Source of the DNA: Lachnospiraceae bacterium
GTDB taxonomy: Bacteria; Bacillota; Clostridia; Lachnospirales; Lachnospiraceae
Reading direction: 5' to 3'
DNA: 64,000 bases
Assembly: GCA_017517305.1 (NCBI GenBank)
Contig: JAFWZV010000008.1
Location: 1 to 64,000 of the forward strand
Both the position numbers and the translations under genes were made by a program. The notes beneath the pieces were generated by a model, which was given only the letters and a program-made list of their open reading frames with translations, was not told the origin of the DNA and searched no databases. Below, in pieces: positions 3,728 through 29,869 of this stretch (the stretch's first letter is position 1; each line of letters begins with the position of its first letter).

Positions 3728-3849
3728 CTTTATACTTTATTTAAAGTATGGTAAAATTAGGTATAGGGGAATTTAAACTATGGGTTCATTGAATTTATTG
3801 CCTATATAACGGATTATATAATTGTTATGGCATCAAGGAGGTGCTTGTT

Positions 3850-5994
3850 ATGGGAGAAAAGAGAGAATTAATTAAAAGTAAGCTTTATGATTTTATATGT
3901 GATGATATGTATAAGCCCATGAAGCTTAAGGATATACGATTTTTGTTACAGGTGTCAGATTCTGACAAGAAAAAGGTTGAGGAGGCATTAGGTGAGCTTG
4001 TTGCTGAGGGCAAGATTGAGCTTACTCCTAAGGGCAAATATAAGAAGATAGATAGTAACCTTTTAGTTGGTACATTTATTGGTAATAAAAAGGGCTTTGG
4101 CTTTGTAAAGGTTGAGGGAATGAAGGATGATTATTTTATTCCTGCTAAGTATTGCTTTGATGCATTTCACGGGGACAGAGTACTTATTAAGCCATTAAAG
4201 GATGCCACTTCTGGAAGAAGAAGTGAAGCACAGATTATGAAGGTGCTAGAGAGAGGTATGTCAACTGTGGTTGGTACCTTCGAGAAGCAGGATCATTTTG
4301 GCTTTGTTATAGCTGACAATCAGAAGGTTTCTGATGATATATTCGTAAGTAAGTCTGATTCTATGGGTGCTATGACCGGACATAAGGTTGTATGTAAGAT
4401 TACAAGCTATGGTGAGTCTGGAAAGTCTCCAGAGGGTAAAATTGTAGAGATATTAGGACATGTTAATGATCCTGCTACAGACATAATGTCAGTGGTTCGT
4501 GCATATGATATACCTATGGAGTATCCTGAGAAGGTTATGGATTCTCTTAAAGATATTCCAGATGAGGTTGACCCTGCTGATATTGAGGGAAGACATGATT
4601 TTAGGGATTTACTTACAGTTACTATAGATGGTGAGGATGCTAAGGATTTAGATGATGCTATTACCTTGTCTTTTAAGGATGGCATATATACTCTTGGTGT
4701 TCATATTGCTGATGTAACTAACTATGTTAAGGAGAAGTCACCTCTTGATAAGGAGGCTCTTAAGAGAGGTACAAGCTGTTATTTGGTAGATAGTGTTATA
4801 CCTATGATACCTCATAAGCTTTCTAATGGTATTTGTTCTCTTAATGCCGGTGTGGACAGACTTACACTTAGCTGTGTTATGGACATAGATAAGAAGGGTA
4901 AGCTTATTAATCATTACATCTGCGAGGGAGTAATTAATGTTAATGAGCGTATGACCTATACGGATGTGGCTAAGATTCTTGAGAGAGCAGAGGATGCTCC
5001 TTTGAATCGCTATGATTATCTGGTTTCTACCTTTGATCTTATGAAGGAGCTTTCAGAGATTATTCGAGAGAATCGTCATAAGAGAGGCTCTATAGATTTT
5101 GATGTTCCTGAGACTAAGATTATAGTTGATGAGAATCACAAGCCTATAGAGATTAAGCCATATGATAGAAACCCTGCTACTAAGATTATAGAAGATTTTA
5201 TGCTTATGGCTAATGAAACTGTAGCTGAGGATTTCTTCTGGCAGGAGCTTCCATTTGAGTATAGAGTTCATGAGAAGCCTGACCAGGAAAAGATATCTAT
5301 ATTGAATGGATTTATTAATAATTTTGGATTATTCTTCAAGGCATCCTTAGAGGACGTACATCCTAAAGAGTTACAGAAGATTTTGAAGCAGATAGAGGGA
5401 GAGCCATATGAAGCACTTATTACTAAGATGATGCTTCGCTCCATGAAGCAGGCAAGATACTCAACAGAGTGTACTGGACATTTTGGCTTATCATGTAAAT
5501 ATTATTGTCACTTTACATCACCTATTAGAAGATATCCTGACTTACAGATTCATAGAATCATTAAGGAACATTTAAGAGGTGAGCTTAATGATAAGAGAAT
5601 TAAGCATTATAATAGAATATTGCCTACAGTTGCCAATGATAACTCTAGTAAGGAGCGTCGTGCTGAGGAAGCTGAGCGTGAGGTTATAAAGCTTAAGGAA
5701 ATTGAATATATGTCAGAGCATATAGGAGAAGAATTCGATGGTGTTGTATCAGGTGTTACATCTAGCTATATATTTGTAGAGCTTGACAATACTGTAGAAG
5801 GTGCTGTATCAGTGGCATATATGTATGATGACTGTTATTATTTTAGTGAGGAGTCCTATTCTATGATAGGTGAGAACACTAAGAAGAGATATCAGTTAGG
5901 AGACAAGGTGAGAATTAAGGTTTTGAAATGTGATAAAATTAAGAAAACCATTGATTTTTCAATAATTAATGATAATATAGAAAGGGCTGAATAA
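3850..5994 (+). CDS. rnr: Ribonuclease R
   Basis: A 714-residue 3'-5' exoribonuclease that degrades structured RNA and cooperates with tmRNA in clearing faulty mRNA. Domain order is an N-terminal winged helix (about 1-70), two cold-shock OB domains (about 70-220), the RNB catalytic domain with [12 protein letters not shown] near 260 and [13 protein letters not shown] near 553, and a C-terminal S1 domain (about 625-710). ATG 3850 is preferred over GTG 3841 because AAGGAGG (3835-3841) overlaps the GTG and is eight bases from the ATG. smpB starts one base after the stop, so the two are co-transcribed. Confidence 0.95.
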
Positions 5995-5995
5995 A

Positions 5996-6466
5996 TTGGC
6001 TAAGGAAAAAGGCACAAAGTTAATAGCCAACAACAAAAAAGCATATCATGATTATTTTATAGAAGATACCTATGAAGCGGGAATAGCTCTTGCCGGAACA
6101 GAGGTTAAGTCTTTAAGAATGGGTAAATGTAGCATCAAGGAATCCTTTATTCGAGTTGAGGATGAGGAAGTATTTGTTTATCAGATGCATATTTCACCCT
6201 ATGAAAAGGGTAATATATTTAATAAGGACCCTCTTCGTGTAAGGAAGCTTCTTCTTCACAAAAGTGAGATAAGAAAGCTTATAGGTCATCAGAAGATGAA
6301 GGGGTATACACTTATTCCGTTAAAGGTTTATTTTAAGGACAGCTTGGTTAAGGTTGAGATAGGTCTTGCCAGAGGTAAGAAGCTATATGATAAGAGAGAT
6401 GATATTGCTAAGAAGGACGTAAAGCGCGAGGCTGAGCGTGATTTCAAGGTTAGAAATCTAGGATAA
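5996..6466 (+). CDS. smpB: SsrA-binding protein SmpB
   Basis: 156 residues, the usual SmpB length. It binds tmRNA and delivers it to stalled ribosomes. Family motifs seen are [27 protein letters not shown], and the basic C-terminal tail with [14 protein letters not shown]. The start is TTG at 5996, with AAAGGG nine bases upstream inside rnr. Order rnr-smpB-ssrA is the classical trans-translation cluster. Confidence 0.96.
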
Positions 6467-6489
6467 TTACTATAAGAGGTACTATTGAT

Positions 6490-6918
6490 ATGAGTCAGGC
6501 AAAGGTTGATAAGTATAAAGAAGAGAAAAAAAACAGAGAGAAAAACGTTAAGAAGGCCAGAGTGAAAAAGGTTGCAGGAGTTCTTGCTGGTGCAGCAATA
6601 GTGGGAATGATAATCGGATTTCCTTTGGGACGTATTATGTATAACCATTACTATGAGGATAAGCAGAAGAATGCAACTGTTACAGCTGGCGTATATGATT
6701 ATTGGTTTCAGCAGTACTGGAATCTAAATCATGCTGACAAGTTTGCTTCATCGTCATCATATACTCCTGAATCAGGATTATCGGACGAGGAAATTGATGC
6801 ACTTGTAGATGAATTAAGCTCTTCATCAGATGCTGTTATTCTTACACCTGATGACCTTAACCAGGATGCATTAATAGATGCCCTAGAGGATGATGCTTCT
6901 ACCACAGAAGCTCAGTAA
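6490..6918 (+). CDS. Small single-pass membrane protein of unknown function
   Basis: A 142-residue protein not recognised by name. It has a highly basic N-terminal helix (residues 1-32), one membrane helix (about 33-56, with VLAGAAIVGMIIGFPLG), and a Ser/Asp/Glu-rich acidic tail rich in YYWFQQYWN-type aromatics early on. The positive N-terminus predicts the tail lies outside the cell. It sits between smpB and ssrA, only ten bases before the tmRNA. A role in trans-translation is not implied by its sequence. Confidence 0.7.
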   Translation: MSQAKVDKYKEEKKNREKNVKKARVKKVAGVLAGAAIVGMIIGFPLGRIMYNHYYEDKQKNATVTAGVYDYWFQQYWNLNHADKFASSSSYTPESGLSDEEIDALVDELSSSSDAVILTPDDLNQDALIDALEDDASTTEAQ

Positions 6919-6928
6919 ATATAAACCA

Positions 6929-7271
6929 GGGGTTGTACTGGTTTCGACGGGGGTTTAGAAATTATGGTAGCCATCGGTGGCCCTGGACCACCTTACAAAC
7001 GGGAATTAAATATAAACGCTAACGACAATTACGCGTACGCTGCCTAGTGGCAGCTGTCAGATCTAGGCTCCCCGCAGCTTAGAACCCTGGCATCGAACTT
7101 GCGGGAAACTCACTAGCCTAAGCTTTGCGGTTGGTGAAAATTTATGAAGCTACTAAGATGTGAAGCCTGTCTATGGGCGTCATGTCAAGGGAATGTAAAA
7201 ACATAAGACTGTGATGGGAGAAGCTATAATGGAAGAGCTTTCGGACGCGGGTTCGATTCCCGCCAGCTCCA
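6929..7271 (+). ncRNA. ssrA: Transfer-messenger RNA (tmRNA)
   Basis: The 5' end GGGGTTG pairs with CAGCTCC at 7264-7270 to form the acceptor stem, with G-U wobbles. The TTTCGACGGGGG segment and the T-arm GGGTTCGATTCCCGCC are diagnostic. The tag frame reads ANDNYAYAA and stops at TAG 7045-7047; the resume codon is probably GCT 7018. The CCA end is not encoded, because ACTT follows. It lies downstream of smpB. Confidence 0.96.
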
Positions 7272-7351
7272 CTTGAACACCAAGAATTAAACTTTGAATT
7301 AGAGTTTATTATCTTAAATAATGTGTTCTGTGTGATATATAGAATCAAGTA

Positions 7352-19963: not shown

Positions 19964-19979
19964 TTTGGAAGGAGAAATA

Positions 19980-21668
19980 ATGGAAGAAAAGATAGGAACA
20001 GAGCTAAATATTGCTCTTGATACAGCTGAATACTTAAGAGAGAAAAGCTTGGACTTAAATACAGGTTATGACAAAGACCTTAGTCAATGGAGATTGATAA
20101 TAAGATATATTGGGGATATAGAAGCCTTGGCTATGGATTATTCTGTTGAATATACTGAGCTATTAGGTGGTTTTGCTATTGTTTTAATAGATGAGAGTGT
20201 TATAGAAGAATTTGCATCGGATAGTAGAGTTATATATATCGAAAAGCCCAAGCTGTTTTTTCAAGCAAGAACAACTATAAATGGTTTTGTTGAATCTTGT
20301 ATGAATGTTCCTTTTTATGAGTATGGCTTAAAGGGAAAAGGCATCACTGTTGCTATAATTGATTCCGGTATTGATATATATAATTCAGTTTTTATGGATG
20401 ATAATGGCTCTGTTACAAAAATAGTAGGTATATGGGACCAAACATTATATGGTAATCCACCAAGGGGATATAATGTTGGGACATTCTATAGCAGGGAGGA
20501 TATAAATGCTGCCTTAGAATCTGATGAAAAGCTATTTTTTAGTGAGGATATATCAGGACATGGTACAGCTGTAGCAGGAATTGTTGTTTCATGTACTCCT
20601 GAGGTTGATTTACTTATTATAAAATTGGATACCTATGATAGGGAACAATCTGATACCATAAGTTTGATGCTGGGAATAGACTTTGCTGTTAGGTATTCTA
20701 TAGATAATGAATTACCTATGGTGATTAATTTGAGCTATGGAAATAATTCAGGTGACCATAATGGGAATTCTGTTCTAGAAAGATATATTGATTATGTATC
20801 AGGTATTTCAAAAATTACATTTGTAGTTGGAGCTGGAAATGATGGTGTTTCAGGGAGACATGTACAAATTAATATGGAAAATGAAAGCTTTTACAGGAGA
20901 GATTTTCTAATACCAGAAGGTGAAAAAGGTATAAATATTCAAGTATGGCGTAATTATCAGGATCAATTCCATATGTTTTTACAAACTCCTAGGGGTGATG
21001 TTATAGGACCCTTTAATAATCTCAATGTTCTTATGAAATATTCTATAAATGACATGGATATAAGAGTTTTAAATTCTAGTCCATCACCAATTAATATAAA
21101 ACAAGAAACCTATATTAGTATAATTCCTTATAATGAGTTTATTGAATCTGGAATTTGGTCTATTATTATTAATCCCCAAAGTATCATAGATGGAAGAGTT
21201 GATGCTTGGTTACCTGTTGAGGGAAGTACTAATACAAATATTAGATTTTTAACACCATCTGAGAGTACAACACTTACCATTCCTTCAACTACAGATAAAG
21301 TTATAACAGTTGGTGCATATGATTCTAATTCTATGACCTATGCATCTTTTTCGGGACGTGGTAATACTGTTGATGGTATTGTAAAGCCCGATATTGTTGC
21401 TCCTGGAGTTGATATTGATGTGCCTGCAGTTGGAGGAGGATATACTTTGGTGTCTGGAACTTCATTTGCAGCACCCTTTGTTTCTTCTGCGGCTGCTATG
21501 CTTATGGAGTATGGGATAGTAGAAGGAAATGATATGTTTTTGTATGGAGAGAAGGTAAAGTCATATATAATTAGTGGAGCAAGACAAATATTAGGTATAT
21601 CATCTTATCCTGACATAAGAGTTGGCTGGGGAGCATTATGTGTTGATGAAAGTATACCTAAAGAATAA
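19980..21668 (+). CDS. Subtilisin-like serine protease, Csp-like family
   Basis: 562 residues, family S8. Catalytic residues are Asp128 in IIDSGID, His194 in SGHGTAVAGI, and Ser495 in SGTSFAAPF; Asn is present in VVGAGND. About 100 residues precede the protease domain, like the prodomain of clostridial Csp germination proteases, and a beta-rich insert of about 150 residues separates the VVGAGND and Ser blocks. No signal peptide is visible. ATG 19980 is chosen because AAGGAG ends six bases upstream; a TTG at 19965 precedes that site. It is divergent from spoIIGA, which suggests a sporulation or germination link (inference). Confidence 0.8.
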   Translation: MEEKIGTELNIALDTAEYLREKSLDLNTGYDKDLSQWRLIIRYIGDIEALAMDYSVEYTELLGGFAIVLIDESVIEEFASDSRVIYIEKPKLFFQARTTINGFVESCMNVPFYEYGLKGKGITVAIIDSGIDIYNSVFMDDNGSVTKIVGIWDQTLYGNPPRGYNVGTFYSREDINAALESDEKLFFSEDISGHGTAVAGIVVSCTPEVDLLIIKLDTYDREQSDTISLMLGIDFAVRYSIDNELPMVINLSYGNNSGDHNGNSVLERYIDYVSGISKITFVVGAGNDGVSGRHVQINMENESFYRRDFLIPEGEKGINIQVWRNYQDQFHMFLQTPRGDVIGPFNNLNVLMKYSINDMDIRVLNSSPSPINIKQETYISIIPYNEFIESGIWSIIINPQSIIDGRVDAWLPVEGSTNTNIRFLTPSESTTLTIPSTTDKVITVGAYDSNSMTYASFSGRGNTVDGIVKPDIVAPGVDIDVPAVGGGYTLVSGTSFAAPFVSSAAAMLMEYGIVEGNDMFLYGEKVKSYIISGARQILGISSYPDIRVGWGALCVDESIPKE

Positions 21669-24020: not shown

Positions 24021-24057
24021 ATAAGCCCATAATTTAAAGATTATGGGCTTATTATTT
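24021..24057 (+). terminator. Terminator after purE
   Basis: ATAAGCCCATAAT (24021-24033) pairs perfectly with ATTATGGGCTTAT (24040-24052), then TATTTT. Confidence 0.85.
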
Positions 24058-24077: not shown

Positions 24078-26645
24078 ATGAAGAAAAAACTAGCGTTAGG
24101 CATTCTTGCACATGTGGATGCTGGAAAAACTACTTTATCTGAAGCTATACTGTACCACTCAGGTGTAATAAAAAGTTTAGGTAGGGTTGATAACAAGAAC
24201 ACATATTTAGATACTGAAGATATGGAGAAAAATAGAGGGATAACCATATTCTCAAAACAGGCTGTATTTGAAACAGATACAGCTTATTTTACGTTGGTTG
24301 ATACACCTGGTCACGTGGATTTCTCCGCAGAAATGGAGAGAACACTGCAGGTATTAGACTATGCTGTTTTGGTAGTAAGTGCAAGTGATGGTGTTCAGGG
24401 ACACACTAAAACATTGTGGAAATTGTTAAAACAATATAATATACCTGTGTTTATATTTGTAAATAAGATGGATCAGCCTGATAATGATAGTAATGAAATA
24501 TTACAGCTTCTTAAAAAGGAGCTTAGTGTTGATTGTATCCATTTTTCAAGAGGAACTATCTTAGATGATGAGCTTGAGCATATGGCAATGTTATATGCGG
24601 AATACACTAATGATGACAGCTTTCTTGATAAGTTCCTGGAGGAAGGTGCTCTTGATGATGATATTATTAGAGAACTTATTCTTCACAGACAGGTATTTCC
24701 GTGTTATTTTGGCTCTGCTTTAAAGCTTGAAGGAATAGATATATTTGTTGAAGGAATTAATCATTATACCATTAGTTCTAATTCTGCCACTTCTGAGGAT
24801 TTTGGTGCTAAGGTGTATAAGATTACCAGAGATGATAAAAATGAAAGACTAGTGCATCTAAAAATCACCAGTGGGGAACTTAAGGTAAAGGATAGAATTA
24901 AAGATGAAAAGATAAATCAAATTAGAATATATAATGGCAACAAATTCGAAACAGTTAATGCTGCAGATAAGGGTACAATATGTGCTGTTACAGGTTTAGA
25001 GAATATTGTTGCAGGTGATTCCTTGGGGGTTAATGAGCAAAGGTCTATGACCTTGTTAGAGCCTGTAATAAGTTATCAGATTATAATTCCAGATGGAATA
25101 AGTGCAAGACAAATTTATCCTAAGCTTAAGCAATTAGAGGAGGAAAATCCAGAGCTTTCCTTGAGTTGGAATGAGGACAAAGAAGAGATCAAGGTCAAGC
25201 TTATGGGACAGGTTCAAATTGAAATTCTTAAGGGTATTATAGAGAAGAGGTTTGGTTTTGTACCTGAGTTTGGCTTGGGAAGTATAAGCTACAAAGAAAC
25301 CATTTCTAACCAAGCTATTGGTGTGGGACATTTTGAACCGTTAAAGCATTATGCGGAAATACATCTAATGCTTCAGCCTAGTGAAAGAGGCTCTGGTATT
25401 ACAGTGGAAAGTAATTTAAGCGAAGATATTTTAGATAGAAATTGGCAACGCTTAGTTAAAACTCATGTGTTGGAGCGTACACATAGGGGTGTGTTAATTG
25501 GTGCACCTTTGACTGATGTTAAAATTACTATTACTAATGGTAGAGCTCATATCAAACATACTGAGGGTGGTGACTTTAGGCAAGCTACCTATAGAGCTAT
25601 TAGAAATGGCTTGATGTATGCTGATTCTCAGCTATTAGAACCATATTATGAATTTGAACTTAATATTCCTTCGGATATGATTGGGAGAGCAATGCTGGAT
25701 ATTGAAAATATGCATGGAAGCATGAATCCTCCAGAACAAAACGGTGAAATGGCCATAATATCTGGTAGATGTCCTGTTGCAACAATGAGGGATTATCAGG
25801 TTAATGTTAATGCTTATACTAAAGGTAAAGGAAGCTTGTCTGTTGGATTTTATGGTTATGATTTGTGTCATAATCAGGAGGAAATAGTTGAAAATTCCGG
25901 TTATGATCCATGTGAAGATATAAAAAATCCTCCATCCTCTGTATTTTGTGCTCACGGGGCAGGCTTTGTTGTGCCTTGGTATGAGGTCAGGGATTATATG
26001 CATCTTGATTTTGATGAAGAAAAAATAGATGAATTTATTCATATTGCTAATTATAGAAGAGAAAGCTTTGATTACTCTATTGGCACTGATGAAATAGATG
26101 CTATTCTGGGTAAAACCTATAATGCAAATTCCAAGTCAGGAAAACAGAGCTATAAAAAGAAGCGGGAAACAGATTATTTTGAGTATAACAAGGTAAAATC
26201 AAGTCCAAAAGTAAAAGAACAAGTATATATTATTGATGGATACAATGTTATATTTGCTTGGAAGGATCTAAAGGAACTCTCAAAACAAAATATAGATTCA
26301 GCAAAGGATCGATTAATATCAATTGTATCTGAATATAAAGCTATTATTGATACTAATATGATTATAGTTTTTGATGGATATAAGGTAAAGAACAATTTGG
26401 GAAGTCAAGATATTAAAGAAGACATATCTATCATTCATACAAAGGAAGGGGAAACGGCAGACGCTTATATTGAAAGATATGCAAATTCCAACAAGGATAA
26501 GTTAAATATTACTGTTGTGACTTCAGATAGTCTAATTAGACAGCTCACATCAGGTAATAACTGTAGAGTTGTTAGTTCTGTGGATTTTGAAAGAGAAGTA
26601 GATGCTGCTAAGAAGCAATTAAGGGACACATATAAATTAGATTAA
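24078..26645 (+). CDS. TetM-like translational GTPase fused to a Rae1/YacP NYN endoribonuclease domain
   Basis: 855 residues against about 640 for TetM. Residues 1-650 form an EF-G-like ribosome protection factor: P-loop AHVDAGKTT (11-19), switch RGITIFSKQ (52-60), DTPGHVDF (74-81), NKMD (128-131), then domains II to V. A basic linker (about 680-715) leads to a C-terminal NYN domain (716-855) that aligns with Bacillus Rae1: IIDGYNVIFAW with Asp720, IIVFDGYKV, TKEGETADAYIERYA, and VVTSDS. Rae1 is known to cut mRNA in the ribosomal A site. A fusion would place the nuclease where the GTPase binds. Tetracycline resistance should not be assumed. Confidence 0.88.
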   Translation: MKKKLALGILAHVDAGKTTLSEAILYHSGVIKSLGRVDNKNTYLDTEDMEKNRGITIFSKQAVFETDTAYFTLVDTPGHVDFSAEMERTLQVLDYAVLVVSASDGVQGHTKTLWKLLKQYNIPVFIFVNKMDQPDNDSNEILQLLKKELSVDCIHFSRGTILDDELEHMAMLYAEYTNDDSFLDKFLEEGALDDDIIRELILHRQVFPCYFGSALKLEGIDIFVEGINHYTISSNSATSEDFGAKVYKITRDDKNERLVHLKITSGELKVKDRIKDEKINQIRIYNGNKFETVNAADKGTICAVTGLENIVAGDSLGVNEQRSMTLLEPVISYQIIIPDGISARQIYPKLKQLEEENPELSLSWNEDKEEIKVKLMGQVQIEILKGIIEKRFGFVPEFGLGSISYKETISNQAIGVGHFEPLKHYAEIHLMLQPSERGSGITVESNLSEDILDRNWQRLVKTHVLERTHRGVLIGAPLTDVKITITNGRAHIKHTEGGDFRQATYRAIRNGLMYADSQLLEPYYEFELNIPSDMIGRAMLDIENMHGSMNPPEQNGEMAIISGRCPVATMRDYQVNVNAYTKGKGSLSVGFYGYDLCHNQEEIVENSGYDPCEDIKNPPSSVFCAHGAGFVVPWYEVRDYMHLDFDEEKIDEFIHIANYRRESFDYSIGTDEIDAILGKTYNANSKSGKQSYKKKRETDYFEYNKVKSSPKVKEQVYIIDGYNVIFAWKDLKELSKQNIDSAKDRLISIVSEYKAIIDTNMIIVFDGYKVKNNLGSQDIKEDISIIHTKEGETADAYIERYANSNKDKLNITVVTSDSLIRQLTSGNNCRVVSSVDFEREVDAAKKQLRDTYKLD

Positions 26646-26725
26646 TCGTTGTATTTTATGTAGTTTTGTGTTAACTTATTAATATCTATAGGAAACTATA
26701 ATTTTTACGAATGGGGGTTACTTAC

Positions 26726-27619
26726 ATGGATTTTAAGGGACTATGGACAACAATTAAGAAGAATGCAATACATTTATTTAAAAAAGCTAGAAAAGCCATT
26801 AAAAGATATATAAGAAAGCTTGTTAAGCACACAAAGGCAGGAGATTATAGCGTATTAATTTATACTATATTTGCTTTAGTTGCGCTGATTTTAATTATCG
26901 TTATGTTTGCTAATATCTTTTCACTTGGAGGAAAGAAAAAGAGCACTCTTGATATTACTACAACTGAGGTTGCAACACCAGCAGATGTTACAGAGGACCC
27001 ACAGATTGCAGCTCAGATGGCTTTAAAGCAGCAGGCTATGGATATTTATAGTAGGAATAAAGACTTTATCTTCTTAGTAGATGAAAATCATCCATTAGCT
27101 GAGGGCTATAGCTTTGAACATCATACATTAAACTGTGGTCTTGATATTGATAAGAGAATATATAATGATTTCTCTGAAATGTTAAATGCATGTAATATGG
27201 CAGGCTATGAATATAATATTATTAATGCTTATATAGATAAAGCAACACAGACAGAGCTTTATAACTCTGCTGTTGCACATTATGTAGATCAGGGACTTCT
27301 AGAAGAGGAGGCACAGGCTCAGGTAGGTAAATCAGTTGACAAGCCAGGTTGTAGCGAGCATGAGACAGGCTTGGCAATAGATTTAACCGATGTTGAGGTA
27401 TTGGGAGAAGAGGATTACAAGTCTACAAGAGGAACAGATCAGTGGCTTATGAATAATTGTCATAAGTATGGATTTATTAACAGATATCCAGCTAATAAGG
27501 TTAGTGTTACTGGTGTAAGTGATGAGCAGTGGCAGTTTAGATATGTTGGAAGAGAGGCTGCTGAATTTATGGCTGCAAATAATCTATCCTTAGAGGAGTT
27601 TATGGAGCTTGTTCAATAA
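26726..27619 (+). CDS. VanY-like D,D-carboxypeptidase fold, probably degenerate
   Basis: 297 residues with a basic N-terminus, one membrane helix (about 43-65), a Thr-rich linker, and a VanY/DacB-type domain. The SEHETGLAIDL motif keeps zinc ligands His212 and Asp219. The last motif, normally ExWH, reads EQWQ (267-270), so the third zinc His is replaced by Gln. The usual SxYRS substrate motif also reads NAYIDK. The fold is clear but activity is doubtful; it may bind wall peptides. ATG 26726 is chosen over 26711 because GGGGGT lies between them. The TPR gene follows after 24 bases. Confidence 0.8.
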   Translation: MDFKGLWTTIKKNAIHLFKKARKAIKRYIRKLVKHTKAGDYSVLIYTIFALVALILIIVMFANIFSLGGKKKSTLDITTTEVATPADVTEDPQIAAQMALKQQAMDIYSRNKDFIFLVDENHPLAEGYSFEHHTLNCGLDIDKRIYNDFSEMLNACNMAGYEYNIINAYIDKATQTELYNSAVAHYVDQGLLEEEAQAQVGKSVDKPGCSEHETGLAIDLTDVEVLGEEDYKSTRGTDQWLMNNCHKYGFINRYPANKVSVTGVSDEQWQFRYVGREAAEFMAANNLSLEEFMELVQ

Positions 27620-27643
27620 AATACTAATAGGGTTGGTTTTATT

Positions 27644-28555
27644 ATGACACCGAGAGAAGAGAAAAAAAGATTAAGAAGAAAAAAGAAAGCTATTAGAAAA
27701 GCGCTACATGTTCTTAATATTGCATTATTTATACTTGTGGTTATTATAACATTTGTAGGAATTTTCCATATATTTACACCTAAAAAGGCATATAGAAATA
27801 AAGGTGTTGATAGCTTTAATGCAGGTGAATATGAAGCTGCAATAGAACATTTTGATAAGGCTTTAGGCTATAATCAGTGGTTTTCTGATAAGCTTAATGT
27901 TGATATTTGTTATTATAAGGCGGATGCATATCTTAGATTAGAGATGTATCCAGAGGCTTATAATACTTACAAATATATATTAGATGAGTATTCTGATTCT
28001 CATTATAATGAGGAGGATGTGACTTATCTTATGACTATTACAGATGCACTTATAAGATTTTCTAAGGGGGAATATTATGGTTCTCATGGAACCTTTGTAG
28101 ATGCAGTAAGTAAGGGGTATACAGAGCTTGCTGTTTATGCGGCTATATGTTATGAGCATCTTGATGATTACGATAAGATGAAGGAATACTTTGATATATA
28201 TAGTAGAGAAGTTGGAATGGATGCATATCTGTGTTATAAATTTGCACAATATTACATTGAGCAAGAGGATTACAATACAGGCGCTGCATATACAAATCAG
28301 GGTTTAATGCAAGAGGATAAAACATATGAGAAGCAGCTTAGATATACTCAGATTGTATGTTATGAAAAGCTTGGTCAGTTTAATGAGGCCTTTGCATTGG
28401 TTAAAGAGTATGTGGAGCTTTATCCTGACGATATGAAGGGTGCAGACTTATATGCATATTTGGATACTAGAGTAAATATTTCTGAGGAACCTATCAATGA
28501 TATTTATGATTTGTATGGTGATGATAACTCAGATGATTATTTGGAAGAATATTAA
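27644..28555 (+). CDS. Membrane-anchored TPR-repeat protein
   Basis: 303 residues: a very basic cytoplasmic N-terminus (1-25), one membrane helix (about 26-47), then TPR-like helical repeats. The first repeat, NKGVDSFNAGEYEAAIEHFDKALGY, is clear, and others follow to about 270. The tail is acidic. TPR domains bind partner proteins, and the predicted location is outside the cell. It probably forms a unit with the VanY-like gene upstream. No specific function can be given. Confidence 0.78.
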   Translation: MTPREEKKRLRRKKKAIRKALHVLNIALFILVVIITFVGIFHIFTPKKAYRNKGVDSFNAGEYEAAIEHFDKALGYNQWFSDKLNVDICYYKADAYLRLEMYPEAYNTYKYILDEYSDSHYNEEDVTYLMTITDALIRFSKGEYYGSHGTFVDAVSKGYTELAVYAAICYEHLDDYDKMKEYFDIYSREVGMDAYLCYKFAQYYIEQEDYNTGAAYTNQGLMQEDKTYEKQLRYTQIVCYEKLGQFNEAFALVKEYVELYPDDMKGADLYAYLDTRVNISEEPINDIYDLYGDDNSDDYLEEY

Positions 28556-28573
28556 TAATTATAATGATGTATA

Positions 28574-28614
28574 AATATTATGGTTGTTTATTATATATGA
28601 ACAACCATAATATT
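28574..28614 (+). terminator. Strong AT-rich hairpin before hflX
   Basis: Bases 28574-28588 pair perfectly with 28600-28614 (15 bp, AACAACCATAATATT in the right arm) with an 11-base loop. No clean T-run follows, so it may be a weak terminator or an RNA stability element in the hflX leader. Confidence 0.5.
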
Positions 28615-28639
28615 ATTATGTCAACCAAAAGGTGATTGT

Positions 28640-29869
28640 ATGTTTGAGAATAAGGATTTAGAAGAAAAGGTAATATTGTTCTGTGTTGATCTTGATAATG
28701 GTGAGGATGTTGAGGTTAATCTTGATGAGCTGGAGGAGCTTGTTAAAACTGCAGGAGCAACTGTAGTAGGTAGGCTGGTTCAAAAGAAGGATGGCATTGA
28801 CAAGGCGACCTATATTGGATCTGGAAAAACTATGGAATTAAGAGAAATGGTTGAAGAGCTTGGTGCCACAGGTGTTGTGTGTGATGATGAGCTTAGTCCT
28901 ATGCAACTTAAGAATTTAGAAGAGGCTGTTGATACAAAGATTATGGACAGAACCATGGTTATTCTAGATATATTTGCAGGAAGAGCCACTACCAGAGAAG
29001 GTAAAATTCAGGTAGAGTTAGCTCAGTTAAAATATAGATCCTCTAGACTTATTGGTATGAGAAGCTCACTTTCTAGATTGGGTGGTGGTATTGGTACCAG
29101 AGGTCCTGGTGAGAAAAAGTTAGAGATTGATAGGCGTATAATCAGGGATAGAATTGCACAGCTTCAGCGAGAATTAGAAGATGTAAAATCTCACAGAGAA
29201 GTTATGCGTAAGCAAAGAATAGCTGGTGATTTACCAATTGTTTCCATTGTGGGATATACTAATGCAGGTAAATCAACCTTGTTGAATCATCTGACAGATG
29301 CAGGAGTTTTAGAGGAGGATAAGCTTTTTGCCACTTTGGATCCTACGTCACGTAATCTTAAGCTTTTAAATGGTCAGGAGATTATAATTACAGATACAGT
29401 TGGATTTATCAGAAAGCTACCTCATCATCTTATTAATGCCTTTAGGTCTACCTTAGAGGAAGCAAAATATGCTGATATTATTCTTCATGTTGTTGATGTA
29501 TCAAACCCTCAGGCTGATAGTCATATAATTACTGTTTATGAAACTTTAGATAGCTTAGGAGTTGAGAATAAAACAATAATTACTGCATTTAATAAGATTG
29601 ACAAGGTTGAGGAAATGCCTATTATAAAGGATTTTAAAGCTGATGCAATTGTGAATATCGCAGCTAAAAAGGAAATTGGCTTTGATAAGCTTATGGAAAC
29701 TTTAGCAGATGAGATAAATAAATGTAGAAAATATGTAGAGAAGCTTATCTCTTATAATGATGCAGGTATTATTAATAAAATTAGAAAGTCAGGTACCTTG
29801 CTTTCTGAAGAATATAGAGAGGATGGAATATTTATTAAAGCATATGTAGATGGTAGCTTTAATATTTAA
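28640..29869 (+). CDS. hflX: Ribosome-associated GTPase HflX
   Basis: 409 residues. The N-terminal HflX domain has KATYIGSGK and the glycine-rich GGGIGTRGPGEKKLE; the G domain has GYTNAGKST (205-213), DTVGFIRKLPHHLI, and AFNKID. HflX splits stalled or stress-inactivated 70S ribosomes. AAAGGTG precedes the ATG. rsmF-type and other RNA-related genes follow at short spacing. Confidence 0.95.
   Translation: MFENKDLEEKVILFCVDLDNGEDVEVNLDELEELVKTAGATVVGRLVQKKDGIDKATYIGSGKTMELREMVEELGATGVVCDDELSPMQLKNLEEAVDTKIMDRTMVILDIFAGRATTREGKIQVELAQLKYRSSRLIGMRSSLSRLGGGIGTRGPGEKKLEIDRRIIRDRIAQLQRELEDVKSHREVMRKQRIAGDLPIVSIVGYTNAGKSTLLNHLTDAGVLEEDKLFATLDPTSRNLKLLNGQEIIITDTVGFIRKLPHHLINAFRSTLEEAKYADIILHVVDVSNPQADSHIITVYETLDSLGVENKTIITAFNKIDKVEEMPIIKDFKADAIVNIAAKKEIGFDKLMETLADEINKCRKYVEKLISYNDAGIINKIRKSGTLLSEEYREDGIFIKAYVDGSFNI

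Follow-up and report, generated by a model that had tools for sequence, protein, structure and literature searches.

Results

A GTPase joined to a Rae1-type nuclease

We analysed a stretch of 64,000 nucleotides (nt) from a Lachnospiraceae bacterium (assembly GCA_017517305.1, contig JAFWZV010000008.1, positions 1 to 64,000; hereafter the window), in which one open reading frame (ORF) encodes a translational GTPase of the EF-G/Tet type followed by a Rae1/YacP NYN nuclease domain. The first-pass annotation had described a GTPase fused to a Rae1-type nuclease; Pfam domains and the nearest solved relatives bear this out, and the domain order is confirmed. The parts of the gene are listed below, with residues numbered in amino acids (aa).

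24078..26645, + strand: whole fusion gene, 855 aa, ATG start, stop included, no internal stop
24090..24767, + strand: GTPase (G) domain, aa 5-230, Pfam GTP_EFTU, E 4.7e-53
24804..25256, + strand: EF-G domains II and III, aa 243-393, Pfam EF-G_D2 (243-318) and EFG_III (328-393)
25281..25622, + strand: EF-G/Tet domain IV, aa 402-515, Pfam EFG_IV
25320..25358, + strand: domain IV tip loop, aa 415-427, consensus GxGHFEPLRHYAE, a family signature
25539..25577, + strand: domain IV loop III, aa 488-500, GRAHxKHTEGGDF, placed by alignment to TetM
25629..25877, + strand: EF-G domain V, aa 518-600, Pfam EFG_C
25890..26003, + strand: GTPase family C-terminal signature, aa 605-642, SVFCAHGAGFxVPWxxVxxYMH
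26004..26222, + strand: linker, aa 643-715, with a conserved motif around E672/I676
26223..26633, + strand: Rae1/YacP NYN nuclease domain, aa 716-852, acids D720, D766, D795 and D817, short C-terminal tail

The G domain of the window protein keeps AHVDAGKTT, DTPGHVDF and NKMD, whose motif residues are invariant or at least 90% conserved across 57 fusions. Domains I, II, IV and V score above their Pfam cut-offs, whereas the EFG_III match, at 23.0 bits, falls below its 27-bit cut-off. At the other end, NYN_YacP matches aa 718-852 (E 5.8e-37, 127.7 bits against a cut-off of 24.6), and the TKExETAD motif singled out in the first-pass annotation is present as TKEGETAD. By sequence, the first 600 residues have TetO (4v6v) and TetM (3j9y/3j25) as their nearest solved proteins, and the last 140 have Bacillus subtilis YacP (5mq8/5mq9, E 4e-17). 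Because 56 other proteins of the same domain order align with the window protein (40-51% identity), the fusion is not an assembly artefact.

Across the 57 fusions, S621, F623, C624 and G627 of the C-terminal GTPase signature are invariant, and the linker that follows spans 71-164 residues (median 79). E672 and I676 in the linker are nevertheless present in 57/57; read by eye, the conserved stretch around them may form a helix. No Pfam match above cut-off was found in the linker, which gave just a weak HMG-box match and a weak peptidase match.

This architecture has been known since 2015, when Tet proteins of ten Clostridiales species were described as having acquired a YacP-like NYN ribonuclease (RNase) domain (Atkinson 2015, PMC4342817); the domain order is identical, and the window protein is a member. 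In the literature searched we found no functional test of the fusion and recognised no other paper on it, and specialist Rae1 papers may mention it earlier. Relative to the portion of Atkinson 2015 available to us (PMC4342817), the analysis below adds the loss of free Rae1, the empty operon place, a single origin, an unfused sister family and tip loops that are not those of Tet proteins.

No complete free Rae1 accompanies the fusion

We searched for NYN_YacP in 120 genomes of the same family and 216 of the same class (two shared, hence 334 distinct) and called fused and stand-alone forms by open-frame length. A fusion was found in 175 genomes and a stand-alone Rae1 (168-260 aa) in 73, and 86 gave no NYN_YacP match. 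The fused calls comprise 168 genomes with frames of 734-1038 aa and seven with cut or split genes (G095, G098, G042, G299, G333, G258 and G170). Thus, the domain order, which the first-pass annotation had proposed to seek among relatives, is widespread, and its counter-scenario of a separate active Rae1 always kept beside the fusion does not hold: a complete Rae1 outside a fusion occurs in 0/175 fusion genomes. Extra NYN pieces lie at contig edges in G039 (139 aa) and G076 (56 aa), and G252 (61% complete) carries two fusions. In G250 (65% complete and counted as Rae1-less), a GTPase piece at a contig edge probably represents a truncated fusion. The genome that contains the window is 98.7% complete, and the fusion is its sole PF05991 match.

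Eighteen fusions were found in a phylum-wide search of 299 genomes, and 12 of the 18 come from outside the class. Among the matches listed, 79 of 80 named fusion loci are clostridial by title, including Lachnospiraceae, Oscillospiraceae, Fusibacter and Anaerovorax. One fusion (L250) lies on a contig of a metagenome-assembled genome (MAG) titled Thermoflexaceae, a Chloroflexota family, and reflects either a misnamed MAG or a transfer. At two loci (L070, 4517-7202; L158, 1633-4271) the GTPase and NYN parts occupy different, overlapping frames, through sequencing error, a real split or a frameshift.

A query made of linker and NYN also matched mobile-element records, with at least 80% query coverage in 2/49 plasmids and 2/11 phages. 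The plasmid records include 12 from Clostridioides and 24 from Ligilactobacillus; 11 Clostridioides plasmid places among the matches listed (H5-H15) match in the NYN part only, are annotated as NYN domain-containing protein and are possibly mobile Rae1-like nucleases. Two faecal 'Bacteriophage sp.' records (H16, H17) match linker and NYN over 93-99% of the query, and bacterial DNA in these records is a possible cause.

Where would a free rae1 be expected? The stand-alone gene adjoins rlmB or sigH at 25 of 27 loci examined (of the 73), in agreement with B. subtilis, where yacO and rae1 are co-transcribed (PMC6613710). Unlike it, the window fusion gene is not beside rlmB/sigH. Its genome has the order cysS, an ORF without NCBIfam match in what we take to be the mrnC place, cysE, rlmB and a sigH-type gene, the rlmB and sigH ORFs being separated by 22 bp. 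No NYN match was found in this 11 kb rlmB/sigH stretch, nor within 1.5 kb of rlmB in any of 23 further fusion genomes checked, 12 of which showed sigH near rlmB. The gene thus appears to have left its former rlmB/sigH place and to persist as the tail of a GTPase.

Tree support for one fusion event in a GTPase family with unfused members

GTPases of the fusion type without a nuclease were found in 12 genomes of the class (13 genes, 645-729 aa, 815-865 bits against the fusion model) and in five of the same family (647-812 bits), where the G099 copy is broken by a frameshift. They stop at or just past the signature SVFCxxGxxFxVxWxxAxxxMHC, at which point the fusions continue with linker and NYN. 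This Cys/His signature (SVFC...MHC), which ends the unfused members L139-L155, perhaps binds metal. No genome in the class search for these GTPases holds complete copies of both forms; G189 has a second, cut piece.

We placed these proteins in a 90-row GTPase tree, built by quick search with Shimodaira-Hasegawa-like approximate likelihood-ratio (SH-aLRT) values as its only support. The tree omits loci that are cut, split or repeated (including L070, L071, L072, L138, L156 and L158) and nine EF-G or RF3-like rows (L034, L092-L096 and L099-L101); L186 is labelled tet-like in it despite passing the Tet cut-off, and L192 is labelled tet by search score only. The fusion-type family forms its own branch (support 100), and tet and tet-like rows another (93). 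Within the family, the 57 fused rows make one clade (SH-aLRT 99), which supports a single event that joined the nuclease to a GTPase family with unfused members as well. Fission as the source of the unfused GTPases is disfavoured, the 17 unfused rows forming their own group (88) beside the fused clade.

The fused GTPase stands beside the Tet proteins

Is the fusion a tetracycline-resistance protein? The curated cut-off of the Tet model NF012153 is 775 bits; the window protein reaches 439, whereas four proteins above the cut-off score 853-1001 bits. The fusion has the EF-G-like domain layout of TetM/TetO, its best solved matches by sequence, and differs from them in its own C-terminal signature, its separate branch and its domain IV tip. 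TetM Pro509 sits in the drug site, where its importance has been stated (PMC8161019). TetM loop III is GLYYSPVSTPADF, and Pro509 aligns with Lys493 of the window protein; YYSPVSTPADF in TetM/TetO is set against RAHxKHTEGGDF in the fusion. Lysine occupies this position in 56/57 fused and 17/17 unfused members, and proline in 4/4 tet rows and in L186.

Sixteen positions across the two domain IV tip loops, including H418, H424 and H494, are invariant in 74/74 family members; G415, G417, H418, E420, P421, L422, H424, Y425 and E427 are likewise present in 74/74. A few of the 16, such as P421, D499 and F500, are common to tet. The fusion also shares domains I-V and the GTPase motifs with EF-G; it is distant from EF-G in the tree and lacks the QSGGRGQYG-type tip loop of the EF-G rows, and its own genome encodes a separate EF-G (L033) and, by tree place, a second EF-G-like gene (L035). 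We conclude that the GTPase of the fusion belongs to a separate family beside, not inside, the Tet proteins, with a tip of its own.

Genuine tet genes above the cut-off also occur in 7/24 fusion genomes checked; the window's genome has no tet gene above it. A housekeeping role, which the first-pass annotation had preferred to acquired resistance, is therefore still favoured on these sequence comparisons: the model score is low, Pro509 is replaced and seven genomes have their own tet. Tetracycline resistance as the main role is disfavoured by score, tip loop, tree and coexisting true tet genes alike. Public names vary: an Agathobacter rectalis record assigns such a fusion to the TetM/TetW/TetO/TetS family, and another is called 'translation factor GTPase family protein'. 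The resistance name on at least one such protein could distort resistome counts of gut bacteria.

The nuclease half keeps its acids and relaxes other traits

The acids matching D7, D53, D81 and D104 of B. subtilis Rae1, some of which we take to be catalytic, are invariant in 59/59 fusions and 27/27 stand-alone proteins (the 59 NYN rows omit L071, L069, L070 and L158; the 27 omit L097, the same gene as L064). The first-pass annotation had considered that the active-site acids might be unconserved among fusions; this is not so. The NYN domain of the window protein thus resembles B. subtilis Rae1/YacP (5mq8, 5mq9) by sequence and differs from that free enzyme, whose gene lies beside rlmB, in being fused to a GTPase, in its shorter tail and in the replacement of R118.

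These differences extend to the other fusions. R118 is kept in 27/27 stand-alone proteins versus 23/59 fusions (Val831 in the window protein), a C-terminal LExxR-type motif in 24/27 versus 11/59, and a tail of fewer than 40 residues occurs in 0/27 versus 15/59 (21 residues in the window protein). Among the B. subtilis rae1 alleles that their authors take as loss-of-function is R166P, a change near the C-terminus of the protein (PMC6613710), and R166 would fall within the LExxR-type motif. On one reading of these alignments, R118 and the tail relaxed in fusions as the GTPase took over docking.

Gene neighbourhood of the fusion

One further feature lies directly upstream of the fusion gene.

24021..24052, + strand: terminator-like hairpin between purE and the fusion, 25 nt upstream of the ATG

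The hairpin leaves scant space for a promoter ahead of the fusion. A terminator-like hairpin lies within 300 nt of 22/118 fused genes and within 60 nt of 6/118 (the mean of 1.1 for shuffled sequence was obtained with plain base shuffles), and these few cases rule out transcription attenuation as a family feature.

The near neighbours identified are purE, a VanY-type carboxypeptidase, a tetratricopeptide repeat (TPR) protein, a GTPase and an RsmF-like methyltransferase. The carboxypeptidase scores far under the curated cut-offs of Van resistance models, and the neighbour GTPase, with GTP-bdg_N, GTP-bdg_M and MMR_HSR1 domains, is presumably HflX. Carboxypeptidase, TPR protein and HflX-type GTPase lie downstream of the fusion (window 26711-29869), an order that recurs, among 13 fusion loci compared, only in L169 of the same genus. 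At the 12 loci of other genera the sole recurrence is a weak chemoreceptor match adjoining the fusion (L170).

Elsewhere in the window, genes for RNase R, SmpB and transfer-messenger RNA (tmRNA) are clustered at 3841-7274, a machinery able to clear cut messenger RNAs (mRNAs). A subtilisin-like protein (19965-21668) resembles the germination proteins CspBA/CspC and scores under their curated cut-offs.

Discussion

What does the fusion do? We give a probability of roughly 0.5 to its being a housekeeping, ribosome-associated, mRNA-cleaving factor and the sole Rae1 of its genome. Ribosome binding, the order of steps, the cleavage site and coupling to GTP are predicted features. Tet-type factors overlap with EF-G in the ribosomal A site (PMC8161019), and the A site is also where Rae1 attacks mRNA (PMC12320835). 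Because both are placed in the same site, the two halves would be expected to act there in turn, and the first-pass picture of joint action needs to be changed accordingly.

In such a scheme, the GTP form of the fusion would bind a ribosome paused with its A site open or obstructed, where the conserved domain IV tip seems suited to probe the decoding centre. GTP would then be hydrolysed and domain IV withdrawn from the A site. The NYN domain, tethered by its linker of about 70-160 residues, could enter the vacated site and cut the mRNA, a linker of 71-164 residues being able to let GTPase and nuclease swap places. Trans-translation, with RNase R, SmpB and tmRNA all encoded in the window, might then clear the ribosome. 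That the protein is a self-delivering A-site nuclease, whose His-rich tip inspects paused ribosomes while the tethered Rae1 cuts, gated by GTP hydrolysis, is a tentative proposal.

Several observations weigh against a joint housekeeping function: (i) relaxation of R118 and the tail is equally compatible with reduced nuclease activity; (ii) the branch that sets the fusions on one side of the NYN tree has a support of just 47; (iii) Rae1 function is dispensable in the 86/334 genomes without a detected Rae1; (iv) the neighbours seen in the window are not kept in order at the 12 loci of other genera; and (v) the unfused relatives do not track Rae1. If both proteins had worked together before fusion, they would be expected to co-occur. 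In the family of the window's organism, an unfused GTPase is present in 5/9 stand-alone-Rae1 genomes versus 0/12 Rae1-less ones (p = 0.006, one of the five being the frameshifted copy), but this pattern failed class-wide, with 6/64 versus 6/74 genomes (p = 1), and we rejected co-occurrence as proof of GTPase-Rae1 coupling. Pooling family and class gives p = 0.12, with no correction for relatedness. Given the lack of association between the unfused GTPase and stand-alone Rae1 across the class, the GTPase family seems to serve a separate role and can exist without any Rae1.

The last point leads to the alternative that survives best, itself rather unlikely, in which the halves are independent: NYN would do ordinary Rae1 work, the GTPase an EF-G-like job, and the fusion would fix their ratio or keep Rae1 near ribosomes. 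The long and variable linker (71-164 aa) would suit such an arrangement; of the 12 class genomes in which the GTPase occurs unfused, 6 gave no NYN match, and 58/64 stand-alone-Rae1 genomes lack a fusion-type GTPase. Yet none of the 17 NYN-less GTPases in the tree falls within the fused clade, so that no sampled complete gene shows NYN loss; no fusion genome has a complete free Rae1; E672 and I676 are conserved in 57/57 linkers; and it is only in fusions that the traits of the free enzyme are relaxed.

Alternatively, the order could be reversed, the NYN domain cutting first and the GTPase then splitting or resetting the ribosome with its truncated mRNA, as EF-G works with RRF in ribosome recycling (PMC4342817). 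The complete GTPase motifs would permit this, but the window already encodes SmpB, tmRNA and RNase R, and the sequence offers nothing that favours this order over the GTPase acting first; we hold it to be improbable. A nuclease aimed at ribosomal RNA (rRNA) or transfer RNA, for instance at the rRNA of faulty or recycled subunits reached via the GTPase, is more improbable still: the only solved NYN relatives are B. subtilis YacP/Rae1, which attacks A-site mRNA (PMC12320835). Weakest of all is a tetracycline ribosomal protection protein with an added RNase, as in the resistance mechanism involving RNase activity that Atkinson 2015 suggested together with a test for rRNA RNase ability (PMC4342817), for which the TetO/TetM relatives and the Agathobacter rectalis name speak, against the sub-threshold Tet score, the lost proline, the separate branch and the true tet genes of other fusion genomes.

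The fusion is real, widespread, conserved and under-studied, and the joint mechanism is what we infer from it. Here the nuclease is permanently tied to a factor of an A-site-visiting type, with no free enzyme left, so that ribosome choice by Rae1 becomes testable with one protein. If the proposal of a self-delivering, GTP-gated nuclease is true, the fusion would be a one-protein trigger of ribosome rescue and would serve as the usual form of Rae1 across much of the Clostridia.
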